Of a DNA stretch of 64,000 nt, positions 3,113 to 38,268 are shown piece after piece (positions within the stretch are counted from its first letter, which is position 1; the number at the start of each line of letters is the position of its first letter). The notes below the pieces were generated by a model. The model saw only the letters and a program-made list of their open reading frames with translations. It did no database searches and was not told the origin of the DNA. The stretch lies in the NCBI RefSeq assembly GCF_010586825.1, contig NZ_JAAAGB010000001.1, forward strand, positions 1,054,001 to 1,118,000. The letters run 5' to 3'. The translations under genes and the position numbers were made by a program. The DNA comes from Draconibacterium mangrovi. GTDB lineage: Bacteria > Bacteroidota > Bacteroidia > Bacteroidales > Prolixibacteraceae.

Positions 3113-4702
3113 ATGAGACACATTATCATTTATATATTTTCGCTATTTCTTTTTACCAATGCGTTGGCACAGGAAGCTGACACCGCACTTACATTAGATG
3201 ACCTGAAACTGGAAGCAGATACCACCGGTTTTAACGCATTGGATGTTGAAGATATGCTGAATCCCATTTTTTCGGATCAGATGGACAGCATGATGAGCTC
3301 GTGGGATATTCAGAACCGCTTTAACTTCGATAACTCAGAAGTGCGAACACTTGATTTCCCTAAAAACCTGCCCGATTCAGTTTACATTAACCGTTTAAAA
3401 GAAATTGAGCAGGTTGTTGATCTGTCGTACAATTCGGTGGTAAAAAACTACCTGCAAATGTATACCGAAAAGCGTCGCGACCTGGTTGAAGTAATGCTTG
3501 GATTATCGGCTTACTACTTCCCTATTTTTGAGGAAACGCTGGACAAATACTATATGCCACTGGAGATAAAATACCTGGCTATTATTGAGTCGGCACTAAA
3601 TCCAACGGCACGCTCGCGGGTTGGCGCAAACGGACTGTGGCAGTTTATGTACGGCACTGCCCGCAACATGAAACTGGAAATTACCTCGTTTGTTGACGAG
3701 CGCCGCGACCCGATAAAAGCAACCGATGCTGCAGCACGCTACCTTACCAAACTACACGATATTTATGGCGACTGGCATTTGGCCATTGCCGCTTATAACT
3801 GTGGCCCAGGAAATGTAAACCGTGCCATCCGCCGCTCGGGAGGAAAAAGAAATTACTGGGAAATCTATTACCGTCTGCCTCGCGAAACCAGAGGTTACGT
3901 ACCGGCATTTATTGCGGCAACTTATACTTTCGAATATTACAAGGAGCACAACTTAGTCCCACGTTTCCCGGAGATCGAACTGTCGGTTGATACCGTGATG
4001 GTGAACGACTATCTGCATTTTGATCAGGTAAGTGCAAAACTACATATCGAGAAGGAAGAATTACGTGCATTAAATCCGATGTACCGCCGCGATGTGATTC
4101 CGGCTAAGGCAAGCAAGCCATATCCGTTGGTTTTACCGAATGATGTGATTTTGGATTTTGTTGACCTGGACACAGCAATTTTTGCTTTCGAGCGCAACAA
4201 ATACTTCCCCAACAATACCTTAATGGACCCAACAAGCAGCAACAGCAGCTATTTTACGCCTGTTGATATTAAGGGAAAAGCAAAAGTTGTTTACACCGTT
4301 AAAGCAGGCGATAACGTTGGTTTTATCTCGTCGTGGTTTCATGTGCGTACTTCCGATTTGAGGTATTGGAACAACATTAACCGCGATATAATTCGTGTGG
4401 GCCAGAAACTGGCTATTTACGTTCCTGAAAAAGACAAGGAGAAGTACGAGCAGGTTGCCAGCATGAGTTTTGCTCAAAAACAAGCTTCTATCGGCAAAAC
4501 ATCAACACCTGCAACAACGAGCACTTCGAAACCACTTGATCCGAATTTCGAATATTACACCGTACGTAAAGGAGATACTTTGTGGGATATTGCTCAGAAA
4601 TATGCAGGAATATCGGCTGATGAAATCATGCGGCTAAATGAGCTCAAAAACGATCGTGGATTGTATATCGGCCAGAAATTAAAGATCAAACGAAAAGGGT
4701 AA
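3113..4702 (+). CDS. Membrane-bound lytic murein transglycosylase with two LysM domains (MltD-like)
   Basis: The 529-residue protein has a signal peptide (residues 1-19, cleaving after NALAQ), an SLT transglycosylase domain at about 140-290 and two C-terminal LysM modules (about 389-435 and 480-529). The catalytic Glu lies in AIIESALNP (E159), and the family motif GANGLWQFM follows. It cleaves the MurNAc-GlcNAc bond of peptidoglycan to 1,6-anhydro products, with the LysM repeats binding glycan. It is 2 bases downstream of the DUF5683 gene. It is not a lipoprotein by sequence, unlike E. coli MltD. Confidence 0.9.
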   Translation: MRHIIIYIFSLFLFTNALAQEADTALTLDDLKLEADTTGFNALDVEDMLNPIFSDQMDSMMSSWDIQNRFNFDNSEVRTLDFPKNLPDSVYINRLKEIEQVVDLSYNSVVKNYLQMYTEKRRDLVEVMLGLSAYYFPIFEETLDKYYMPLEIKYLAIIESALNPTARSRVGANGLWQFMYGTARNMKLEITSFVDERRDPIKATDAAARYLTKLHDIYGDWHLAIAAYNCGPGNVNRAIRRSGGKRNYWEIYYRLPRETRGYVPAFIAATYTFEYYKEHNLVPRFPEIELSVDTVMVNDYLHFDQVSAKLHIEKEELRALNPMYRRDVIPAKASKPYPLVLPNDVILDFVDLDTAIFAFERNKYFPNNTLMDPTSSNSSYFTPVDIKGKAKVVYTVKAGDNVGFISSWFHVRTSDLRYWNNINRDIIRVGQKLAIYVPEKDKEKYEQVASMSFAQKQASIGKTSTPATTSTSKPLDPNFEYYTVRKGDTLWDIAQKYAGISADEIMRLNELKNDRGLYIGQKLKIKRKG

Positions 4703-28527: not shown

Positions 28528-29874
28528 ATGGAAGTTAAGAACATTAAAATATTTGTTGTTGAAGATGATGAGTGGTACCGTCGTTTGCTGGTGCATAATC
28601 TTTCGCTGAATCCGGATTATGAGATACAAGCTTTCGGAACAGGGAAAGAATGTTTGAACAATCTTCACGAACTTCCTGATGTTGTTACGCTGGATTACCG
28701 CCTGCCCGATATGAAAGGTCTTGAGGTATTAAAGCAGATAAAAGCAATTAACGATGATATTCAGGTTATTCTCATTTCGGAACAAGACGACATTGAAGTG
28801 GTTGTTGACTTGCTAAAACATGGTGCTTACGACTACATTGTAAAATCGAAAGACATACGCGAGCGCCTGCTTAACACCGTAAATAATATCAGCAAGGAAT
28901 TTAAACTGAAAGATGAGATTCGCTCGCTGCGCCAGGAGGTTAAAAAGAAATACAGTTACGAAAATACGATTGTGGGCAACAGTCCGGCTACGCAAAAAAT
29001 TTACAATCTGATTGAAAAAGCCACCCGCACCAATGTTACTGTTTCAATAAGTGGAGAAACCGGAACCGGAAAAGAGTTGGTTGCCAAAGCCATTCATTAC
29101 AATTCATCACGTGCCAAACAACCTTTTGTCCCGGTAAACATGGCAGCCATTCCGAATGAATTGATCGAAAGTGAACTTTTTGGCCACGAGAAAGGCGCCT
29201 TTACAGGAGCCGCGGCACGACGCATCGGAAAATTTGAAGAAGCACACTCGGGCACCTTGTTCCTGGATGAAATAGCAGAAATGGACATTTCGTTGCAGGC
29301 AAAACTTTTGCGGGCTTTACAGGAAAAAGAAATTATACGAATTGGTAGCAACAAAGTGGTAAAAATCGATTGTAGAATTATTATTGCCACTAACAAAAAC
29401 CTTTTGGAAGAAGTAAAAAAAGGCAACTTCCGTCAAGACCTTTATTACCGGTTTTACGGATTACCCATTGATCTTCCACCATTGCGCGACAGGGGAAATG
29501 ATGTTATTGTGCTGGCAAAAAGTTTCATCCAACAGTTTTGTAAAGAGAATAAACTGGAGCAGAAACAACTCTCTACTTCTGCCAGTAAAAAATTACTGAC
29601 CTACCCTTTTCCGGGGAATGTGCGCGAGTTAAAATCGGTTATCGAACTGGCAGCAACGCTTGCCGATGAAAAAGAAATTACTGCCGACCATTTATTGCTC
29701 GAAGATGCCGAAAACATTGAAGGTTTGATAACCGAAGAGCTATCGTTACGTGAATACAATCTGCGACTGGTAAAACGTATGCTAGCAAAATACGACAACA
29801 AACCGAAAGTAGTTGCTGATAAACTGGATATTGGTGTTGCTACCATTTATCGTATGCTTAAAGAAGATCAATAG
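28528..29874 (+). CDS. Sigma-54-dependent response regulator (NtrC family)
   Basis: The 448-residue protein has a REC domain with D56 (VVTLDYRLPDM). The sigma-54 AAA+ domain follows, with Walker A GETGTGKE (near 177), the sigma-54-contact loop GAFTGA (near 225) and Walker B GTLFLDEIAEM. A C-terminal Fis-type helix-turn-helix ends in KLDIGVATIYRMLK. It should drive sigma-54 RNA polymerase from upstream sites. Two palindromes and a sigma-54-like promoter lie directly downstream, so it probably controls the next two genes. The hybrid kinase at 24705 is the likely phosphate donor. Confidence 0.92.
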   Translation: MEVKNIKIFVVEDDEWYRRLLVHNLSLNPDYEIQAFGTGKECLNNLHELPDVVTLDYRLPDMKGLEVLKQIKAINDDIQVILISEQDDIEVVVDLLKHGAYDYIVKSKDIRERLLNTVNNISKEFKLKDEIRSLRQEVKKKYSYENTIVGNSPATQKIYNLIEKATRTNVTVSISGETGTGKELVAKAIHYNSSRAKQPFVPVNMAAIPNELIESELFGHEKGAFTGAAARRIGKFEEAHSGTLFLDEIAEMDISLQAKLLRALQEKEIIRIGSNKVVKIDCRIIIATNKNLLEEVKKGNFRQDLYYRFYGLPIDLPPLRDRGNDVIVLAKSFIQQFCKENKLEQKQLSTSASKKLLTYPFPGNVRELKSVIELAATLADEKEITADHLLLEDAENIEGLITEELSLREYNLRLVKRMLAKYDNKPKVVADKLDIGVATIYRMLKEDQ

Positions 29875-29888
29875 TTTCCTCAAACAAT

Positions 29889-29921
29889 TATCATTTTGAT
29901 AATTTCACTATCATATTGATA
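29889..29921 (+). promoter_or_regulatory. Paired palindromic upstream activator sites
   Basis: TATCATTTTGATA (29889-29901) and TATCATATTGATA (29909-29921) are 13-base inverted repeats (TATCA-N3-TGATA) with centres exactly 20 bases apart, about two helical turns. They lie about 100 bases upstream of the predicted sigma-54 start, the usual enhancer distance for NtrC-type regulators. No T-run follows, so they are not a terminator. Confidence 0.6.
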
Positions 29922-29987
29922 GATTTCCAATTTCCCCTATTTCTTCAACACCTTCATCTTCTGATTTTTAAGGATTCTGATTTTTAA

Positions 29988-30003
29988 TGGCACAACAATT
30001 GGC
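29988..30003 (+). promoter_or_regulatory. Candidate sigma-54 promoter
   Basis: TGGCACAACAATTGGC resembles the -24/-12 consensus TGGCAC-N5-TTGCA: the -24 box is perfect and the -12 box reads TTGG instead of TTGC. It overlaps the ATG at 29987, arguing that the coding start is the downstream ATG at 30053. Confidence 0.5.
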
Positions 30004-30052
30004 TATTAAGAGACAGATTATTCAAAAAAAACTAATTCGGAGGAAAAAAATC

Positions 30053-30967
30053 ATGAAAATGAATGGAAAAATACAAAATGCAATAAGCATTGTTTTAGTG
30101 GCAATAATAGTTGTTGCTGCTTTGGTTGGGATTTCAACTTTCACCCAAAAAACATCAGAGATTACCGAACTGCAAACACAGAATGCAGGAATAAACCAGG
30201 AGTTGCAGGATCGCGATTCGATGGTAAATGAGCTGGTTGGTGCTTTTGATGAAATTGAGCAAAACCTGAAGTTTATTAAAGAGAAACGCCAGGTTTTATC
30301 GGTGGAGTCGCAAAAAGAAGGAAACTACGACAGAAAGCAGGCGATTGTTGAGGACATTACTCTGATGAATGAAATGCTGGAAAAAAGTAGCGATCACATT
30401 GCCGAACTGGAGAAAAAACTTAAAAACTCAGGTATTCAGATCAGTTCATTCAAAAAGAAAATTGCGGCTTTAAATGCCAGCATTGAAGAGCAGAACAACC
30501 AAATTGTGGCACTTCAGGAGCAAATCCAGGAGCGCGATATAATGCTGGCCGACATGTCGCAGAAGATTGATACAATGCAGATTGCAATCCAGACCCAACA
30601 AGACTCATTACTTGAACAACAGATGTTAATCGACGAAAAGATTTACCAGTTGAACAAAGGTTTTGTTGCTTACGGTACATACAAAGAACTGGAAGAACAT
30701 AACGTTTTGACAAAAGGCGGTGGTTTCCTCGGATTGGGAAAACAGATTAAGCTGAAAAGAAATCTGGACCAGGACTATTTTACCGAACTGGACATTCAGG
30801 AAACTAAAAGCATCCCATTGTTTTCGAACGAAGCAAAGATCATTTCAGAACACCCTGATAGTTCCTACTCATTTGTTGAACAAGACGGTGTAATTGCCTA
30901 CCTGAATATTGATAATCCGGATGAATTCTGGAAGATCTCGAAATACGCGGTAATAGAAATTAAATAA
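30053..30967 (+). CDS. Membrane-anchored coiled-coil protein, unknown
   Basis: The protein is 304 residues from ATG 30053, which has an unusually good ribosome site GGAGG eight bases upstream. The open frame runs up to 29987, but that start overlaps the sigma-54-like promoter. One N-terminal membrane helix (about residues 10-28) precedes a long coiled coil (about 35-195). A conserved globular end follows (GFVAYGTYKELEEHNVL through FWKISKYAVIEIK). The C-terminal region is a recurrent Bacteroidota domain of unknown function. The coiled coil probably spans or lines the periplasm. It is the likely first gene of a sigma-54-driven unit. Confidence 0.7.
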   Translation: MKMNGKIQNAISIVLVAIIVVAALVGISTFTQKTSEITELQTQNAGINQELQDRDSMVNELVGAFDEIEQNLKFIKEKRQVLSVESQKEGNYDRKQAIVEDITLMNEMLEKSSDHIAELEKKLKNSGIQISSFKKKIAALNASIEEQNNQIVALQEQIQERDIMLADMSQKIDTMQIAIQTQQDSLLEQQMLIDEKIYQLNKGFVAYGTYKELEEHNVLTKGGGFLGLGKQIKLKRNLDQDYFTELDIQETKSIPLFSNEAKIISEHPDSSYSFVEQDGVIAYLNIDNPDEFWKISKYAVIEIK

Positions 30968-30979
30968 TATAGGTTTGCT

Positions 30980-31023
30980 GAAAGCAGGAGCGCGTGCAAC
31001 AGAGGTTGTTCCCTTCTGCTTTC
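30980..31023 (+). terminator. Hairpin between the coiled-coil and DUF4382 genes
   Basis: GAAAGCAG (30980-30987) pairs with CTGCTTTC (31016-31023), followed by GTTTTAA. A short inner CAAC/GTTG helps. This may be a weak terminator or attenuator separating the two coding regions. Confidence 0.45.
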
Positions 31024-31095
31024 GTTTTAACAACCGCAGCCCCAAAACCGAAAGCAGGAAAACAAACATTTAGGAAAAACACAAATAAAGAAGAT

Positions 31096-31959
31096 ATGAA
31101 GAAAATTGGATTAGCACTTACGACGATTGTATTTGGAATCTTAATGATGGTGGCATGTAACGACGACAGCCAAACCACCAATTTTGCGGAAGGAAAAGGA
31201 AAAGTTAACGTGTATCTTACCGATGCTCCTTTCCCTATCGAACTGGTGTCTCAAACCATTGTAACAATCGACAAAGTTGAAATTAGAAAACAGGAAAATG
31301 ACACAACAGAGTCTTCGTTCATTACCATTATGGAGGAACCTTTTGAAATTGACTTACTAAGCCTTTCAAACGGAATTACTGAACAACTGGCATCTGTTGA
31401 GCTGGAAGCAGGAACTTACGATATGATGCGTTTGCATGTAGTTGATGCCGAAGTAATACTGACTGATGAAACAGTATTTGACCTGAAAATTCCAAGCGGA
31501 TCAAGCAGTGGTTTAAAAATTAAGATAGAGCCGGCATTAACAATTAACAGCGGCGAGACTTCTGACGTATTGCTTGACTTTGATGTAAGCAAATCGTTTG
31601 TAGCCAAAGGAAACTGGAAAGGTGGAATGATTAATGGTTTTAACTTTAAACCAGTTGTTCGCTGTGTATTGCTCGACCGTGCCGGAAGAATTGTGGGAAC
31701 TGTCAGCGATACGGCAAATGTACTTTTACCTAACACAGCTGTAAGCCTTTTGACCGAAGTTAGCGACATGGAAGAAGACAGTTTAATTACCACCGCCTTT
31801 ACCAATGAAATGGGTGCATATCAGCTGATTGGAATACCGGAAGGAACGTATTATATGATTGCAGAGCAGGATAGTTTCCTGACCGATACGATATGGAATG
31901 TGGATGTATTAAAAGGAGAGTCAACCCAGATTGACTTTGTTTTAACCCCTGAACCGTAA
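31096..31959 (+). CDS. DUF4382 lipoprotein with C-terminal CarboxypepD_reg-like domain
   Basis: The protein is 287 residues from ATG 31096. The frame is open to 30994, but the preceding codons are a repeat and hairpin region. The signal ends in the lipobox MMVAC (Cys near 20). DUF4382 begins with GKVNVYLTDAPFPIELV and ends with the VLLDFDVSKSFV strand region. From about residue 195 a transthyretin-like domain begins (GRIVGTVSDTANVLLPNTAV). DUF4382 proteins are surface lipoproteins of unknown role. It follows the coiled-coil gene and may share its control. Confidence 0.8.
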   Translation: MKKIGLALTTIVFGILMMVACNDDSQTTNFAEGKGKVNVYLTDAPFPIELVSQTIVTIDKVEIRKQENDTTESSFITIMEEPFEIDLLSLSNGITEQLASVELEAGTYDMMRLHVVDAEVILTDETVFDLKIPSGSSSGLKIKIEPALTINSGETSDVLLDFDVSKSFVAKGNWKGGMINGFNFKPVVRCVLLDRAGRIVGTVSDTANVLLPNTAVSLLTEVSDMEEDSLITTAFTNEMGAYQLIGIPEGTYYMIAEQDSFLTDTIWNVDVLKGESTQIDFVLTPEP

Positions 31960-32252: not shown

Positions 32253-32282
32253 ACAATTCATCCAACAAATTCCACAGTTCGG
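32253..32282 (+). promoter_or_regulatory. LytTR-type operator upstream of the TonB receptor
   Basis: ACAATTCAT (32253-32261), 12 bases, then ACAGTTCGG (32274-32282). The second half fits the published LytTR consensus [TA][AC][CA]GTTN[AG][TG] exactly and the first differs at one position. The 12-base spacing is that of LytTR direct-repeat sites. The same bipartite site recurs at 34593 in the same position relative to its promoter. Confidence 0.65.
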
Positions 32283-32315
32283 TAAAGCAAATTTCATGAG
32301 TTAATGTTTTCGCCG

Positions 32316-32323
32316 GAATTTTG
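32316..32323 (+). promoter_or_regulatory. -7 element of the TonB receptor promoter
   Basis: GAATTTTG is one base off TAnnTTTG (G for T) and begins 34 bases after the LytTR site ends. It overlaps the TTG at 32321, a rejected upstream start of the receptor frame. The weak match suits an activator-dependent promoter. Confidence 0.4.
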
Positions 32324-32347
32324 AAGCGGAAAACAAAACAACAAGTC

Positions 32348-34480
32348 ATGAAAACACTTTTAACATTTAGCTTCATTTTTCTGTCGGTCCTTGCTTTTGC
32401 GCAGATTACTATTTCAGGGAAAGTACTCTCCAAAAACGGCGAGCCCATTCCGGGAGTGAACATTTACCTTGAGAACACCTACGACGGAGCCAGTTCAGAT
32501 GGTGAAGGAAACTTTAGTTTTGAAACAACAGAAACCGGAGAACAAACCCTGGTAGCATCTTTTATTGGCTACAAAACCTGGAGCCAAACTATCGATCTGC
32601 AAAACGACATGGTTGTGCAGATAGAATTACAGGAAAGTGTAAACAGTATTGATGCGGTTACCATAACAGCAGGAAGTTTTGCTGCCGATGATGAGTCGCG
32701 GGCTTCGGTAATGAAGTCACTGGATGTGTACACTACGCCAAGTGCCAACGGGGATGTTATGGCGGCCATTCGCACTATGCCCGCCACACAGGCTTCTGCC
32801 GACGACGGACGTTTACTGGTTCGCGGTGGCGATGCCTATGAAACTTCCACCTATATTGATGGATTGGTTGCAACAAAACCTTACTACTCCAAAACTCCGG
32901 ATGTGGCTACCCGCGGACGATTTGCGCCATCTTTATTTAGTGGGGTTCAATTTAACACGGGTGGATACTCTGCCGAGTACGGACAGGCGCTGTCTTCGGT
33001 TTTGGTCTTGAAATCTACTGATCTTCCGGAAAGCGATAACACCGGTATATCGTTAATGACCATTGGAGCAGAAGCCAACCGCACGGAGCGCTGGGAAAAT
33101 ACATCGTTGAATGTTTCGGGTGGATATACCAACCTGAGTTTGTACGATAAGGTTTTTAAAAGCAATGTTGACTGGGAGAAACCTGTTGAATCGGTAAACG
33201 GAACTACAGTTTTTCGTCACAAAACAAGCTCAAGTGGTATGTTTAAAGCTTATGTTACGGCCGATTATAGTGATCTGGCTTACCTCGTTCCTGCCGGTAA
33301 CGACGGAGAAAAAATGAAGATCAGCAGCAAAGGCGGAACCGTTTATTCCAATCTTTCGTACCGCGATTGTTTTTCAGAAAAATCGTGTTATCGTATTGGA
33401 GTTTCGTCAACCTACCAGGACAACCGTTTGGGATTCGGCGCCGACGATGTGAATACCAAAGAACTGAATATTGAATCGCGCTTTGCCCTTGTACACGATC
33501 TTTCCGAAGGTGTGAAACTAACCTGGGGAGCAAACGAAACTTACAACAAATATGATCAGGATTATATTGAAAATGAAGGTGCTGTATACAATGGCTCTTT
33601 CGACGACCATTTGCTGGGAGCTTTTATCGAGCCGGAGATCAAATTCACAAAAAACTTTGGTATCCGTCCGGGATTGCGCACCGAATACTCGTCGGTAATT
33701 AACAAATGGAACATAGCGCCACGCTTTGCCCTGGCTTTAAAAACGGGAGAAAAAGCACAACTGTCCGGCGCCTGGGGATTGTATTATCAAACGCCCCAAG
33801 CAGACTACCTGAAGATAACCACGGATCTGGATTTTGAGCAGGCTATGCATTATATTCTCAGCTACCAGTTTGGTGATAACTCGGAGCGTTTGTTCCGCAC
33901 CGAAGCTTATTACAAAAAATACAACGACCTTATCACCTATTCGGCGGGCGAAAACGGATTGCCCGAAAACCTGCAAAACGATGGAAACGGTTACGCCGCA
34001 GGTTTAGATATTTTTTGGCGTGATCAGCTGAGCATAAAAGGATTCGACTACTGGATTACCTACTCTTACATCGATACTAAACGGAAATACCAGTATTACC
34101 CTGAAAAAGCCACGCCTTATTTTATCTCTGACCACAATTTTTCGGTAGTGGGTAAATATTGGGTGAATAAAATAAACACCCAGTTTGGCGCTTCGTTTAC
34201 GGCTGCCAGCGGACGTCCGTTTAATGACCCAAACTCATCGAAGTTTAACGGTGAGCGCACCAAAATGTATTCCGATCTGAGCCTGAATATGAGCCATGTG
34301 TTTTACATTGGCAATCAATATTCGGTGTTGTACTGCTCGGTAAACAATGTTTTGGGAAATAACAATGTACTGAGCTACCGCCCTACAAACGTAGCCGATG
34401 CCCAGGGCAACTACTCACTTGTTCCGGTAAAACGCGATTTAAAACGTTTTGTGTTTATTGGTTTGTTCCTGAATTTTTAG
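32348..34480 (+). CDS. TonB-dependent outer-membrane receptor with CarboxypepD_reg domain
   Basis: The protein is 710 residues from ATG 32348; the upstream TTG at 32321 lies in the promoter. The signal peptide MKTLLTFSFIFLSVLAFA is followed by a CarboxypepD_reg-like domain (ITISGKVLSKNGEPIPGVN onward, to about 105). A plug domain follows (about 120-230, LLVRGGDAYETSTYIDGL), then a beta-barrel ending in an aromatic strand (KRFVFIGLFLNF). It imports a ligand across the outer membrane using TonB energy. No SusD partner follows, so it is a siderophore/cofactor/peptide-type receptor rather than a polysaccharide SusC pair. A LytTR-like operator lies upstream. Confidence 0.88.
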   Translation: MKTLLTFSFIFLSVLAFAQITISGKVLSKNGEPIPGVNIYLENTYDGASSDGEGNFSFETTETGEQTLVASFIGYKTWSQTIDLQNDMVVQIELQESVNSIDAVTITAGSFAADDESRASVMKSLDVYTTPSANGDVMAAIRTMPATQASADDGRLLVRGGDAYETSTYIDGLVATKPYYSKTPDVATRGRFAPSLFSGVQFNTGGYSAEYGQALSSVLVLKSTDLPESDNTGISLMTIGAEANRTERWENTSLNVSGGYTNLSLYDKVFKSNVDWEKPVESVNGTTVFRHKTSSSGMFKAYVTADYSDLAYLVPAGNDGEKMKISSKGGTVYSNLSYRDCFSEKSCYRIGVSSTYQDNRLGFGADDVNTKELNIESRFALVHDLSEGVKLTWGANETYNKYDQDYIENEGAVYNGSFDDHLLGAFIEPEIKFTKNFGIRPGLRTEYSSVINKWNIAPRFALALKTGEKAQLSGAWGLYYQTPQADYLKITTDLDFEQAMHYILSYQFGDNSERLFRTEAYYKKYNDLITYSAGENGLPENLQNDGNGYAAGLDIFWRDQLSIKGFDYWITYSYIDTKRKYQYYPEKATPYFISDHNFSVVGKYWVNKINTQFGASFTAASGRPFNDPNSSKFNGERTKMYSDLSLNMSHVFYIGNQYSVLYCSVNNVLGNNNVLSYRPTNVADAQGNYSLVPVKRDLKRFVFIGLFLNF

Positions 34481-34496
34481 ACAGTCTCAAAAAAGC

Positions 34497-34578
34497 TGTC
34501 ATTCCGACGAAGAATGAGGAGGAATCTCATGATTGAAACAGATTTCTCACACCTCGTGCCTCGGCATTCGAAATGACA
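34497..34578. repeat. Interspersed inverted-repeat element (copy 1)
   Basis: It starts TGTCATTCCGA and ends TCGAAATGACA, with internal GAGGAATCTC and AGATTTCTC arms, i.e. an imperfect inverted repeat of about 82 bases. Related copies are at 55782-55860 and 58376-58499. No gene is inside. It may also act as the receptor gene's transcript end. Confidence 0.65.
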
Positions 34579-34592
34579 ATAAAAAGGAACCT

Positions 34593-34622
34593 ACAATTCA
34601 TCCCACAAAATCAACAGTTCGG
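34593..34622 (+). promoter_or_regulatory. LytTR-type operator upstream of the TPR-like gene
   Basis: ACAATTCAT (34593-34601), 12 bases, ACAGTTCGG (34614-34622): the same two half-sites as at 32253. The -7-like GAACTTTG at 34656-34663 begins 34 bases after the site end, exactly as in the first copy. Identical geometry at two promoters supports a common activator. Confidence 0.65.
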
Positions 34623-34709
34623 TAAGGAAGAATTTCAAAAATGCCCGTTTCAGCGGAACTTTGAATCAACAAATAAATCAAACAGCAATAATCATTAATA
34701 CTCAAAGTC

Positions 34710-35339
34710 ATGAAAACAATTATCACCATCCTACTCGTAGTCCTTTCAACTACTGCTTTTTCTTCGAAGTACGAAGAAACCATGAAAACAAACATCGACA
34801 AATTGTACCAGCTGCACACTTCTGCCGAACTGCAGGTTTTAGCCAACCAGTTTGAACGTATTGGCAATGCCGAACAAGACAAATGGTTGCCCAACTATTA
34901 CGCAGCGTATTGTTTTATCCGCTCAACCTTTTTTGATGAAATGGATGACGACAGCAAACATGCCCAACTAGACAAAGCACAGGCTTTAGTAGATCAGCTG
35001 ATGAAAACAAACGACGACGAATCAGAAGTTTATGCTTTGCAGGCATTGTTGTATCAGATACGGATAACCGACATGAGCAAGGGTGCCAAATATTCGATGA
35101 AAGCATCGGATGCCATTAAACAGGCAGAACGTTTAAATCCGGAGAATCCACGGGTATATTACCTGCGCGGAAGCAATACTTTCCATACGCCGAAGTTTTT
35201 TGGTGGCGGTGCCGAAAAAGCCAAACCCGACCTGGAAAAAGCGGCAGTAATGTTTGAATCAAACCAACCAACCAATCCTCTGATGCCAACCTGGGGAAAT
35301 GTGCACAATGCGCAGTTGCTTAGCCAGTGTGAGCAGTAA
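34710..35339 (+). CDS. Secreted TPR-like protein, unknown
   Basis: The 209-residue protein has a signal peptide (MKTIITILLVVLSTTAFS). The mature part is helical: ADQ-type helices around WLPNYYAAYCFIR, a pair of TPR-like repeats (ESEVYALQALLYQIRITDM and LNPENPRVYYLRGSNTFHTP), and a glycine-rich GGGAEKAKPDLEKAAVMFE. Proteins of this type recur beside TonB receptors in Bacteroidota but have no assigned function. The shared LytTR-like operator suggests it is made together with the receptor at 32348. It is probably periplasmic or outer-membrane associated. Confidence 0.7.
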   Translation: MKTIITILLVVLSTTAFSSKYEETMKTNIDKLYQLHTSAELQVLANQFERIGNAEQDKWLPNYYAAYCFIRSTFFDEMDDDSKHAQLDKAQALVDQLMKTNDDESEVYALQALLYQIRITDMSKGAKYSMKASDAIKQAERLNPENPRVYYLRGSNTFHTPKFFGGGAEKAKPDLEKAAVMFESNQPTNPLMPTWGNVHNAQLLSQCEQ

Positions 35340-35476: not shown

Positions 35477-36529
35477 ATGCGCAAGCGCGTAATCATCAAC
35501 TGGCTGGTAGCCATTGTTTTTTCCATTCTTATTGGCATGGTAACTTCTGTGCTTATGGGCGGATCGTTAAATGTTCCCTTCAGGCAGTTTCTGTGGAGTG
35601 CCGGTTATTCGTTAAGTCTGGGCCTCCCGTTATTTGCCAACGGTTATCTTTTCGGATGGTTCGAAAAACGGTATATCGATTGGGTAAATCGTCCGGGAAC
35701 AAGCGTAGTTCGTGCCCTGCTTATGCATCTTTTATATTCCAGTTTTGTCATCTGGACCGTTAACTGGTTTTGGTTTATTCATGTAATGGATCGTGAGTGG
35801 GCCACATTTTGGGAATACAACCGCGGAACCATTATTGCGGAGTACATCATTTTTATTATCGTAGCATCGATTATTTATGCCATTTCGTTTTTTAAAGCCT
35901 GGCGTCACGAGGTTCAACAAAAGGAGGAGGTAAAACGCGAATCGCTCGCCCTGAAATACAAAGTGCTGCAGGATCAGATCAATCCGCATTTTCTTTTTAA
36001 CAGTCTGAATGTGCTGGGAAGCCTCATCGATATTGATGTGGAAAAAGCCAAACAGTTTACACGCGAGCTCTCAAAATTTTACCGCGATGTGCTGCAGTTT
36101 AAAGACCTCGATATTATTTCGCTGAAAGAAGAGATCGATTTTGTGACGAAATACATTTACCTGCAGCAAATTCGTTTTGGCGAGGCGCTTCAGGTGGATA
36201 TTATTGCCAACGAAAAGGTGGAAGGGAAAGTTATTCCGCTATCGGTGCAGGCACTGGTGGAGAATGCCATTAAACACAACGAAATATCAAAAGCCAATCC
36301 GCTAAAAATAGTGGTGGCTATCTCCGATGATTACGAGCTGGTGGTGGAGAATAACCTGCAGCCAAAAACACCTATTGAAGATTCGAGCAGAACTGGCCTT
36401 AAAAACATGGCCGGACGTTATGAATACCTTACCGGAAAACGAATGATCGTATCGAAGAACGGAGGTTATTTCAGGGTTAGTGTTCCGCTGATAAGGGTTG
36501 AAGAAGGAAGTGAGGAAGTGAGTAATTGA
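35477..36529 (+). CDS. LytS-type sensor histidine kinase
   Basis: The protein is 350 residues from ATG 35477; the open frame extends to 35372 without a better start. About four membrane helices fill residues 8-150. The His_kinase (PF06580) domain follows with phospho-acceptor H171 in QINPHFLFNSLNVL, then the HATPase_c N-box VQALVENAIKHN and GLKNMAGRYEYL. It is the usual partner of LytTR regulators. The cognate regulator lies about 970 bases downstream, an unusual gap filled with tandem repeats. The signal is probably sensed by the membrane part. Confidence 0.9.
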   Translation: MRKRVIINWLVAIVFSILIGMVTSVLMGGSLNVPFRQFLWSAGYSLSLGLPLFANGYLFGWFEKRYIDWVNRPGTSVVRALLMHLLYSSFVIWTVNWFWFIHVMDREWATFWEYNRGTIIAEYIIFIIVASIIYAISFFKAWRHEVQQKEEVKRESLALKYKVLQDQINPHFLFNSLNVLGSLIDIDVEKAKQFTRELSKFYRDVLQFKDLDIISLKEEIDFVTKYIYLQQIRFGEALQVDIIANEKVEGKVIPLSVQALVENAIKHNEISKANPLKIVVAISDDYELVVENNLQPKTPIEDSSRTGLKNMAGRYEYLTGKRMIVSKNGGYFRVSVPLIRVEEGSEEVSN

Positions 36530-37500
36530 GGTGGTGAGTTAATGGGTGACTGAGGAAGTGGGGAAATGGAATTTCGATTGAAGAATGATGATTAACGATT
36601 TTAGATTTTGAAAGTTTTCAGTCGCAGTCTCAGTTAGCAGAATGTCATCCTGAGCGGAGTCGAAGGATGGAGGGAAATTAGGGAATGAGTGATTGAGGAA
36701 CTGAGTTATTGAGTAATTGAGGAGTTGAGGGAATAAGTTATTGGGTGATTGAGGAATTTAGTAATTGCGGTGATGAGTTAATGGGTGATGAAGGATAAGC
36801 TCGAAGCTCGCAACTCGTAACTGATAGTTAATGAGTGAATGAGTAATTGGGTGATTGGGTGATTGAGGAAGTGAGGAGATGGAATTTCGATTGAGGAATG
36901 ATGATTAACGATTTTAGATTTTGAAAGTTTGCAGTCGCAGTCGCAGTTTACAGAAGTCATCCTGAGCGGACCTGTCCCGATCGAAGCATCGGGAGTCGAA
37001 GGATGGAAGGAAATTAGGGAATGAGTAATTGGGTAATTGAAGTAGGGAGTTAATGGGTGATGAAGGAGAATCTCGCAGCTCGTAACTGATAGTGAATGAG
37101 TAATTGGGTGATTGGGTGATTGAGGAACTGAGAACTGAATTTCGATTGAAGAATGATGATTAACGATTGTAGATTTTGAAAGTTCTCAGTCGCAGTCGCA
37201 GTTTACAAAACGTCATCCTGAGCGGACCTGTCCCGATCGAAGCATCGGGAGTCGAAGGATGGAGGGAAATTAGGAAGTGAGTAATTGGGTGATTGAGGAA
37301 CTTAGTGATTGAGGTGGTAAGTTAATGGGTGATGAAGGATAAACTCGCGACTCGTAGCTCGTGACTCGAAACTAAAATACAGGAATAACTTGAAGCTTGT
37401 AACTTGCAACTTGTAACTAAAAAGCAAATGCTTCAATCTTGAAAAGAATAATGCTAAAAACGAGCTTGTAGCTTGAAGCTAACAGCTAGTAGCTAAAAAA
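36530..37500. repeat. Tandem low-complexity repeat region between lytS and lytR
   Basis: Three degenerate copies of roughly 260-310 bases (about 36517-36831, 36835-37093, 37094-37372). Each contains runs of GTGATTGAG/GTAATTGGG-type 8-11-mers, then AATTTCGATTGAAGAATGAT and GATTAACGATT, then CAGTCGCAGTCGCAGTT, then GTCATCCTGAGCGGA...GTCGAAGGATGG, then CTCGCAACTCGTAACTGATA. Two copies carry an extra CCTGTCCCGATCGAAGCATC. A tail of AACTTGCAACTTGTAACT and AGCTAACAGCTAGTAGCTAA reaches the lytR ATG. No gene is supported inside it; a 60-residue minus frame is a repeat shadow. Confidence 0.85.
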
Positions 37501-38268
37501 ATGAAAATACTAATCGTAGAAGACGAACCATTGGCAGCGGCACAGCTGGCTGCGCATATTTCTGCCTTAAAACCGGAGGCGCAGATACTGGCAGTGTGCG
37601 ATACCGTAAAAGCCACGGTTGAATGGTTGCAAAACAACGAAGCGCCTGAGCTGGCGTTTTTTGATATTCAGCTGGGCGACGGACTGAGTTTTGAAATATT
37701 TGAACAGACCACCTTCAACCAGCCCGTAATTTTTACTACGGCTTACGACGATTATGCCATTCGTGCTTTTAAAGTGAACAGTGTGGATTATTTACTAAAA
37801 CCCATTGAACGCACCGAGCTAAAAAAGGCACTCGAAAAGTTTGATCAGTTAGCCAAACCGGCAACATCATCTTTTACTCCCGATATCCTGCACGAGGTTA
37901 TGGCCTCGCTGAAAAAGAAAAATTACAAGGAGCGTTTTTTGGTGAAAGTGGGCGCCCATCTTAGGGTGATTGAAACCACCGATGTACTGTATTTCTACAG
38001 TTTTGAGAAAGGTACTTACGCCAAACTTTCGGATGGTAAGGATTACCTGCTCGACCAGAGCCTGGAGCTGGTGGAAACGATGGTTGATCCCAACCTGTTT
38101 TTCCGTATTAACCGCAAATACCTGGTGGCTTTAAAAAGTATCAGCGATGTTATTGCCTACAGTAACTCGCGTTTAAAACTAAAGGTACAACAGGGCAATG
38201 ATGATGATTTCCTGGTGGCCCGCGAGAAAGTAAAAAGCTTTAAGAGCTGGCTGGAAGGATCAGTTTAG
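37501..38268 (+). CDS. LytTR-family response regulator
   Basis: The 255-residue regulator has a REC domain with D55 (ELAFFDIQLGDG) and the T/K positions in VIFTTAYDDYAIRAF and SVDYLLKPIE. A LytTR DNA-binding domain begins at about residue 145 (RFLVKVGAHLRVIETTDVLY) and ends with FFRINRKYLVALKSI...LKLKV. LytTR proteins bind direct repeats with 12-base spacing. Two such repeats lie at 32253 and 34593, upstream of genes in the same cluster. LytS at 35477 should phosphorylate it. A terminator follows. Autoregulation is not evident in the repeat region. Confidence 0.92.
   Translation: MKILIVEDEPLAAAQLAAHISALKPEAQILAVCDTVKATVEWLQNNEAPELAFFDIQLGDGLSFEIFEQTTFNQPVIFTTAYDDYAIRAFKVNSVDYLLKPIERTELKKALEKFDQLAKPATSSFTPDILHEVMASLKKKNYKERFLVKVGAHLRVIETTDVLYFYSFEKGTYAKLSDGKDYLLDQSLELVETMVDPNLFFRINRKYLVALKSISDVIAYSNSRLKLKVQQGNDDDFLVAREKVKSFKSWLEGSV

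Follow-up and report, generated by a model that had tools for sequence, protein, structure and literature searches.

The window analysed here is a stretch of 64,000 nucleotides from the genome of Draconibacterium mangrovi (Bacteroidota; Prolixibacteraceae), and it contains, all on the forward strand, a module of four genes together with two copies of a putative LytTR-type operator. The first gene (32348..34480) encodes a HusB-like TonB-dependent receptor of 710 amino acids with a CarboxypepD_reg domain, and the second (34710..35339) a secreted protein of 209 amino acids with a tetratricopeptide repeat (TPR) fold that belongs to the HusA family as judged by profile and by AlphaFold2 (AF2) model. 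They are followed by a LytS-type histidine kinase (35477..36529; PF06580 with 87.8 bits against a cut-off of 25.2) and a LytTR response regulator (37501..38268; PF00072 with 49.5 bits and PF04397 with 59.4 bits, both above cut-off), the proposed binder of both operators. The starts given for the receptor, TPR and regulator genes in the preliminary description (32348, 34710 and 37501) are consistent with the sequence and its open reading frames. The N-terminal half of the kinase is hydrophobic, with three peaks by hydropathy, and no Pfam sensor domain was found in the protein; for the LytTR domain alone no useful PDB match was obtained.

Both the receptor gene and the HusA-like gene are preceded by the operator pair ACAATTCAT-N12-ACAGTTCGG. 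Upstream of the receptor gene the two half-sites occupy 32253..32261 and 32274..32282, the second lying 12 bp past the first, and upstream of the HusA-like gene they occupy 34593..34601 and 34614..34622. These pairs had been reported before (32253-32282 and 34593-34622), together with the -7-like boxes GAATTTTG (32316..32323) and GAACTTTG (34656..34663), and positions as well as letters proved correct: at both promoters the first base of the box stands 34 bases past the end of the site, with exactly 33 nt between site and box, and the box ends in TTTG. We add to this a TTTC tetranucleotide at 32292..32295 and 34633..34636, near the location of a -33 box; a conserved T-run is found near this place in the aligned sites. 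The leaders of the receptor and TPR genes are alike beyond the site itself. Allowing up to 3 mismatches, the window holds 2 sites where 0.07 are expected, and none of 100 shuffled sequences held 2. No site was found in the 500 bp upstream of either the kinase gene or the regulator gene of the window.

The Bacteroidota promoter consensus consists of a -33 TTTG and a -7 TAnnTTTG (PMC6847099, PMC7366714), although a -33 motif was not found in the Flavobacterium johnsoniae data according to PMC7366714. Compared with this consensus, the window promoters match in the TTTG of the -7 box and in the spacing and differ in the T of TAnn and the G of the -33 box; their -7 boxes are poor, with GAAnTTTG in place of TAnnTTTG. 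LytTR operators have been described as two repeats of 9-11 nt set 11-13 nt apart (PMC4847170, PMC2766830), a form that both sites have, and more narrowly as 9-bp repeats with 12 bp between them, biased to a position 10 bp upstream of the -35 box (PMC2766830, PMC6193735). The conserved geometry fits a Bacteroidota promoter with a LytTR site just upstream, as in other LytTR promoters (PMC6193735).

Conservation of the half-sites in relatives had been named as a test of the operator, and it is found: many members of the phylum keep both half-sites with 12 bp between them and the -7 box at its usual distance. The promoter greatly predates the window. Many genomes of the family share the gene order, with the receptor followed by the TPR gene, the kinase and the regulator. 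The site lies 94-191 bp upstream of the receptor start in family loci (37 family receptor leaders were aligned, the window included) and 96-178 bp upstream of the TPR gene in the genus of the window and several others (27 leaders, the window included). TPR leaders without a site come from 11 loci; at 10 loci with a receptor the site stands before the receptor only, none being found before the TPR gene, and L133, which has no receptor match, has no site before its TPR gene. Within the genus, 20 of the 22 genomes with a close TPR homologue (E<1e-60; the D. mangrovi genome included) carry at least one site with up to 2 mismatches, as against 1 of 15 genomes without such a homologue, and the two misses (G041, G056) have sites with 3-4 mismatches. 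At the same stringency the pattern occurs in 62 of 140 family genomes (reversed pattern, 17) and in 21 of 393 genomes of the order (reversed pattern, 4).

The promoter geometry is fixed. Of 64 family sites picked on their half-sites alone, 62 have TTTG at one and the same offset, as do 37 of 42 matches outside the family (60 loci, both strands, matrix score of at least 20, TTTG unused in scoring) and 14 of 21 order-level pattern matches. Conservation in the alignments covers both half-sites, a T-run beginning 10-11 nt after the site, and A..TTTG. An explanation without any regulator, in which the repeated element is a conserved strong promoter or untranslated-region element or else a recent promoter duplication, would account for the resemblance of the leaders beyond the site; it is extremely improbable, however, as the sequence between half-sites, T-run and -7 box has mostly diverged across relatives, as both promoters keep their own sites across the genus, with two sites also in the Flavobacterium-like loci L200-L202, and as the element is linked to a kinase-regulator pair (see below). 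Variant arrangements also occur: at L459 (around 4433-4500) three consecutive half-sites with spacers of 12 and 11 lie near the start of a HusB-like gene, and at L144 (6636) a full site with promoter-like sequence, possibly a relic, has no recognised module gene downstream.

A genome-wide search, suggested in the preliminary description, found no exact copy in the D. mangrovi assembly (5.9 Mb, 27 contigs) other than the two window sites. Tolerating up to 3 mismatches raises the number of places to 9, namely the 2 exact sites, 1 with 2 mismatches and 6 with 3 mismatches, while the reversed control pattern gives 3. The place with 2 mismatches (L003) was rejected as a third operator, since it lies inside a SusC-like open reading frame. 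A relaxed pattern allowing 11-13 bp between the half-sites returned only the two window sites. The genome encodes 20 LytTR domains, and in a matrix scan of 21 stretches (346 kb) covering all of them the window pair were the only strong intergenic sites, the other LytTR loci having none of this kind. The genome also contains a second receptor/HusA-like pair (L089 5570-8457, on C25), 42% and 44% identical, with no adjoining kinase, regulator or site.

In order to relate the site to its gene context we used 80 loci drawn by homology to the TPR gene and not by the site: 59 from a phylum sample, in which 110 of 395 genomes had matches and one locus was taken from each of 60, hand-picked as mostly the best-scoring with some chosen for spread, and 21 from the family (20 further loci and L089). 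L235, whose contig ends 391 nt past the gene, was removed before counting, and the site-selected loci L220-L234 were excluded. The scoring matrix was trained on family orthologues outside the test set, some test loci being of the same family. Where kinase and regulator genes adjoin, 39 of 50 loci have a site, compared with 3 of the 30 loci lacking such a pair (Fisher p 1.7e-9); counted by genus outside the family, the figures are 11 of 13 versus 3 of 19 (p 2e-4). The three loci with a site and no adjacent pair (L208, L209, L217) belong to genomes that encode elsewhere a regulator 58-76% identical to a module regulator. As a control, 407 windows upstream of the remaining genes at these loci were scored; none reached 18, and none reached 12 with TTTG in place. 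In a later set of 20 HusA-related loci the site occurs in 5 of 11 with the pair and in 0 of 9 without, which brings the combined totals to 44 of 61 versus 3 of 38 (p 1.2e-10), with L446 left out as its contig ends 0.7 kb past husA.

The site also occurs where no uptake genes were seen. At L146 a kinase and regulator are present with the site directly before the kinase and no receptor or TPR homologue in 14 kb; L222 has the same arrangement, again with no receptor or TPR homologue seen, and at L229 a site is visible by eye before a truncated kinase gene. At L228 it precedes another secreted protein with a type IX secretion system (T9SS) tail, followed by kinase and regulator; this tail was the only above-cut-off match when 8 proteins were searched with NCBIfam. 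Taken across these loci, the comparison indicates that the site tracks the kinase-regulator pair rather than the receptor.

The targets had been described as a TonB receptor and a TPR-like secreted gene; both are present, and their meaning changes to a HusB-like receptor and a HusA-family protein. The profile of the TPR gene family matches PDB entry 6bqs (PG_2227, HusA) with an E-value of 1.2e-36. The AF2 model of the protein (pLDDT 92) has HusA as its top Foldseek match (E 3.1e-9, TM 0.81/0.84), which is also the only PDB match with E<0.001, and pairwise identity to HusA is 29%. Profile and model together indicate that the protein is a HusA homologue, secreted according to its N-terminal sequence as read by eye. 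The receptor is 28% identical over its length (E 9e-75) to the product of the gene directly upstream of husA in G921, a genome whose HusA is 99% identical; from PMC6173696 and its position we infer this neighbouring gene to be husB. The AF2 model of the receptor (pLDDT 71, plug part poor) matches generic TonB-dependent transporters. A more specific substrate assignment was tried and dropped, as the sequence gives only a SusC N-terminal-type domain and the fold only generic TonB transporters. HusA, the haemophore of Porphyromonas gingivalis, is produced when iron is limiting; its ligands are haem and porphyrins, which it has been proposed to hand over to HusB (PMC6173696).

Taken together, these observations make it probable that a LytS/LytTR system switches on a HusAB-like uptake pair and that the window sites are the operators of the regulator encoded at 37501-38268. 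The earlier proposal of one local regulon of receptor, envelope protein and sensor is supported by the conserved geometry and by the way the site follows the adjacent pair, with exceptions. Several points weigh against our reading. Eleven of the 50 pair loci fall below the site threshold (L210, L216, L249, L250, L253, L254, L255, L257, L259, L288 and L292), five of them in genus g30; L210 has a diverged site by eye. Below threshold are also 6 of 11 further order-level pair loci, where 21-bp repeats, diverged or with another spacer, can be seen by eye at or near the fixed distance. G230 has strong regulator scores (best E 3.7e-87) and no site at its receptor-TPR pair (L214), its two regulators placed in our tree falling outside the module clade. 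The related genomes in these counts are not independent of each other. Furthermore, in one pairwise alignment the window protein is identical to HusA at 2 (F80, L157) of the ten groove residues F80, M116, L122, L123, V124, P126, W130, L157, Q160 and Y164 taken from PMC6173696; Y164 corresponds to H159 and W130 to G125, and L122 and L123 lie opposite a gap. As single groove mutants of HusA were only slightly weakened (PMC6173696), this low identity is compatible with porphyrin binding.

The regulator tree of 82 sequences comprised 46 of 85 module regulators, 8 site-selected and 3 split ones, 17 of 19 others from the D. mangrovi genome and 8 further sequences. Module, site-selected and split regulators form one clade of 58 (support 0.872), and the paralogue L099 (C24) of the same genome, 45% identical to the window regulator, lies inside this clade with weak support, a further point on the adverse side. 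As L099 falls there without a nearby site, the identity of the binding regulator is less certain. The 20 LytTR domains of the genome and this paralogue lend some weight to the idea that a different LytTR regulator binds the sites and that the neighbour is present by history only. We consider this quite unlikely: site presence follows the adjacent pair; at loci in which receptor and TPR homologues were not found, a site precedes the kinase gene; the pairs L211, L212 and L236, which are without kinase-regulator genes, also lack the site though their genomes hold other LytTR-type matches; and neither the second pair L089 nor L099 has a site. A second complete module (L283-L286) exists in at least two family genomes (G001, G015), and both its half-sites start with ACG where the usual site has ACA. 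Positions 168 and 219 of the regulator (window numbering) differ along with the half-site form; this covariation is suggestive, but the ACG set amounts to only 7 of 74 sequences. Between the kinase and regulator genes of the window lie about 970 bp (36530-37500) taken up by imperfect tandem repeats, a 256-bp unit in 1.8 copies as well as 8-bp units; in relatives this interval ranges from an overlap of the genes up to about 900 bp.

A composite pattern of site, 34-nt gap and A..TTTG was used to scan 84,980 bacterial and archaeal genomes. It gave at least 119 stretches, of which 80 were listed, and the listed ones are all Bacteroidota by title. Among the 89 matches listed, the next gene is a TPR gene in 23 cases, a receptor in 18, a kinase in 7 and a 2TM gene in 1, so that 49 stand directly before one of these; DUF2141 genes follow in 24 cases, other genes in 12, and the stretch ends in 4. 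In 17 of these listed DUF2141 cases the stretch also contains a homologue of a receptor, TPR, kinase or regulator gene, and in 7 it shows none; Flavobacterium-like modules likewise contain a DUF2141 protein and 2TM proteins, and their kinase has a 2TM domain. The 12 other genes among the matches listed include one DUF2807/GIN and one beta-lactamase-family protein by Pfam, and four more resemble the GIN protein by their starts. In the Flavobacteriaceae loci L326, L350, L370, L374 and L385 the composite promoter precedes DUF2807/GIN-like lipoproteins, and no module gene was found within these stretches of 4-8 kb. This breadth bears on a reading in which the pair is a general envelope-stress system, the HusAB-like genes are merely two of its targets and the ligand is no porphyrin. 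The 12 listed sites before other genes in Flavobacteriaceae (five of them DUF2807/GIN-like, one by Pfam), the 24 before DUF2141 genes and the poorly kept HusA groove would suit it. Such a system nevertheless seems somewhat unlikely to us, given that the only two strong sites found in the D. mangrovi genome stand at the HusAB-like pair, and that TPR, receptor and DUF2141 genes are the commonest next genes among the matches listed.

For the module itself we envisage an envelope or nutrient signal that the membrane kinase (35477-36529) would detect and relay by phosphorylation to the regulator (37501-38268), two molecules of which would bind the 9-bp direct repeats, one per half-site and two helical turns apart. 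As the near half-site ends some 10 bp before the -33-like box, the regulator bound there could bring the housekeeping RNA polymerase of Bacteroidota to this promoter, whose -7 box (GAAnTTTG) is poor. The HusB-like receptor and the HusA-like secreted binding protein would thereby be switched on together, and the uptake pair would most likely capture porphyrin or a similar ligand. The sites, the fixed promoter geometry, the link to the kinase-regulator pair across the phylum and the homology to HusA and HusB are visible in the sequences, whereas binding, activation, phosphotransfer, signal and ligand are predictions of this model. The same regulator might instead act as a repressor, the bound repeats keeping the receptor and the HusA-like gene off until a signal arrives. 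The sign of control is not readable from sequence, and the production of P. gingivalis HusA only under iron limitation (PMC6173696) is compatible with either sign. Repression is nonetheless very unlikely, given that the sites lie wholly upstream of the -33-like box in fixed helical phase and that the -7 boxes are poor. Activator sites usually look like this, lying upstream of a -33-type box at a promoter with a poor -7 box. In the literature consulted, LytTR sites with such an arrangement also serve activation (PMC6193735, PMC2766830).

The module resembles the Hus uptake system of P. gingivalis in its order of receptor then HusA, in the fold and sequence family of HusA and in a receptor with 28% identity, and differs from it in that the HusA groove residues are mostly not kept. 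HusA loci of the Porphyromonas family were taken from 8 of 9 matching genomes among 38 searched; none of the 8 (L446-L453) has the site, and the 7 with enough downstream sequence (L447-L453) lack a kinase-regulator pair. A second parallel is the E. coli YpdA/YpdB-YhjX system, in which YhjX is a transporter and which belongs to another promoter class and another phylum and is not known to have a HusA-like partner. It shares with the module a LytS/LytTR pair, and its direct repeats of GGCATTTCAT resemble ACAATTCAT (PMC4847170). HdrRM and BrsRM of Streptococcus mutans likewise use 9-bp direct repeats, most of them 12 bp apart, close upstream of the promoter (PMC6193735); in these autoregulating systems the partner of the LytTR protein is a membrane inhibitor, whereas the module has a response regulator and a kinase, and the window has no site before either gene. 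HaeSR of P. gingivalis is similar as a two-component control of haem uptake in Bacteroidota and differs in having HaeR sites before 57 genes (PMC3764172); in the main text of that paper no words beginning with LytR, LytTR or hus occur. LytTR/kinase mutations in F. johnsoniae (PMC10197871) were left unused, as the locus could not be tied to the module, and the LytTR link to PSP/Toastrack described in PMC11237479 concerns other gene contexts. Upstream of the module (28528-31959) lie genes for a sigma-54-type response regulator, a coiled-coil-like protein and a DUF4382 protein, whose place is kept in close relatives.

Our searches of the CC-licensed PMC literature turned up no comparable LytTR operator or regulon in Bacteroidota. 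The finding is larger than the preliminary description had it: in many Bacteroidota an old operator-promoter unit goes with a LytS/LytTR pair and its putative HusAB-like targets. As a tentative wider hypothesis, this may be a phylum-wide LytS/LytTR system with HusAB-type porphyrin uptake as its core regulon, whose kinase would report porphyrin or haem status at the envelope; in individual lineages further envelope proteins (DUF2141, GIN lipoproteins, T9SS proteins) might have come under this promoter code, and Porphyromonas could have dropped the regulator while retaining the uptake genes. The genome is rich in LytTR regulators, and the analysis defines an operator-promoter code precisely, lists likely targets and names species suited to tests. 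What is new is that many HusA relatives share one promoter form with a HusB-like receptor and a LytS/LytTR pair, so that porphyrin handling by HusA relatives outside Porphyromonas, and the switch that may control it, become testable.

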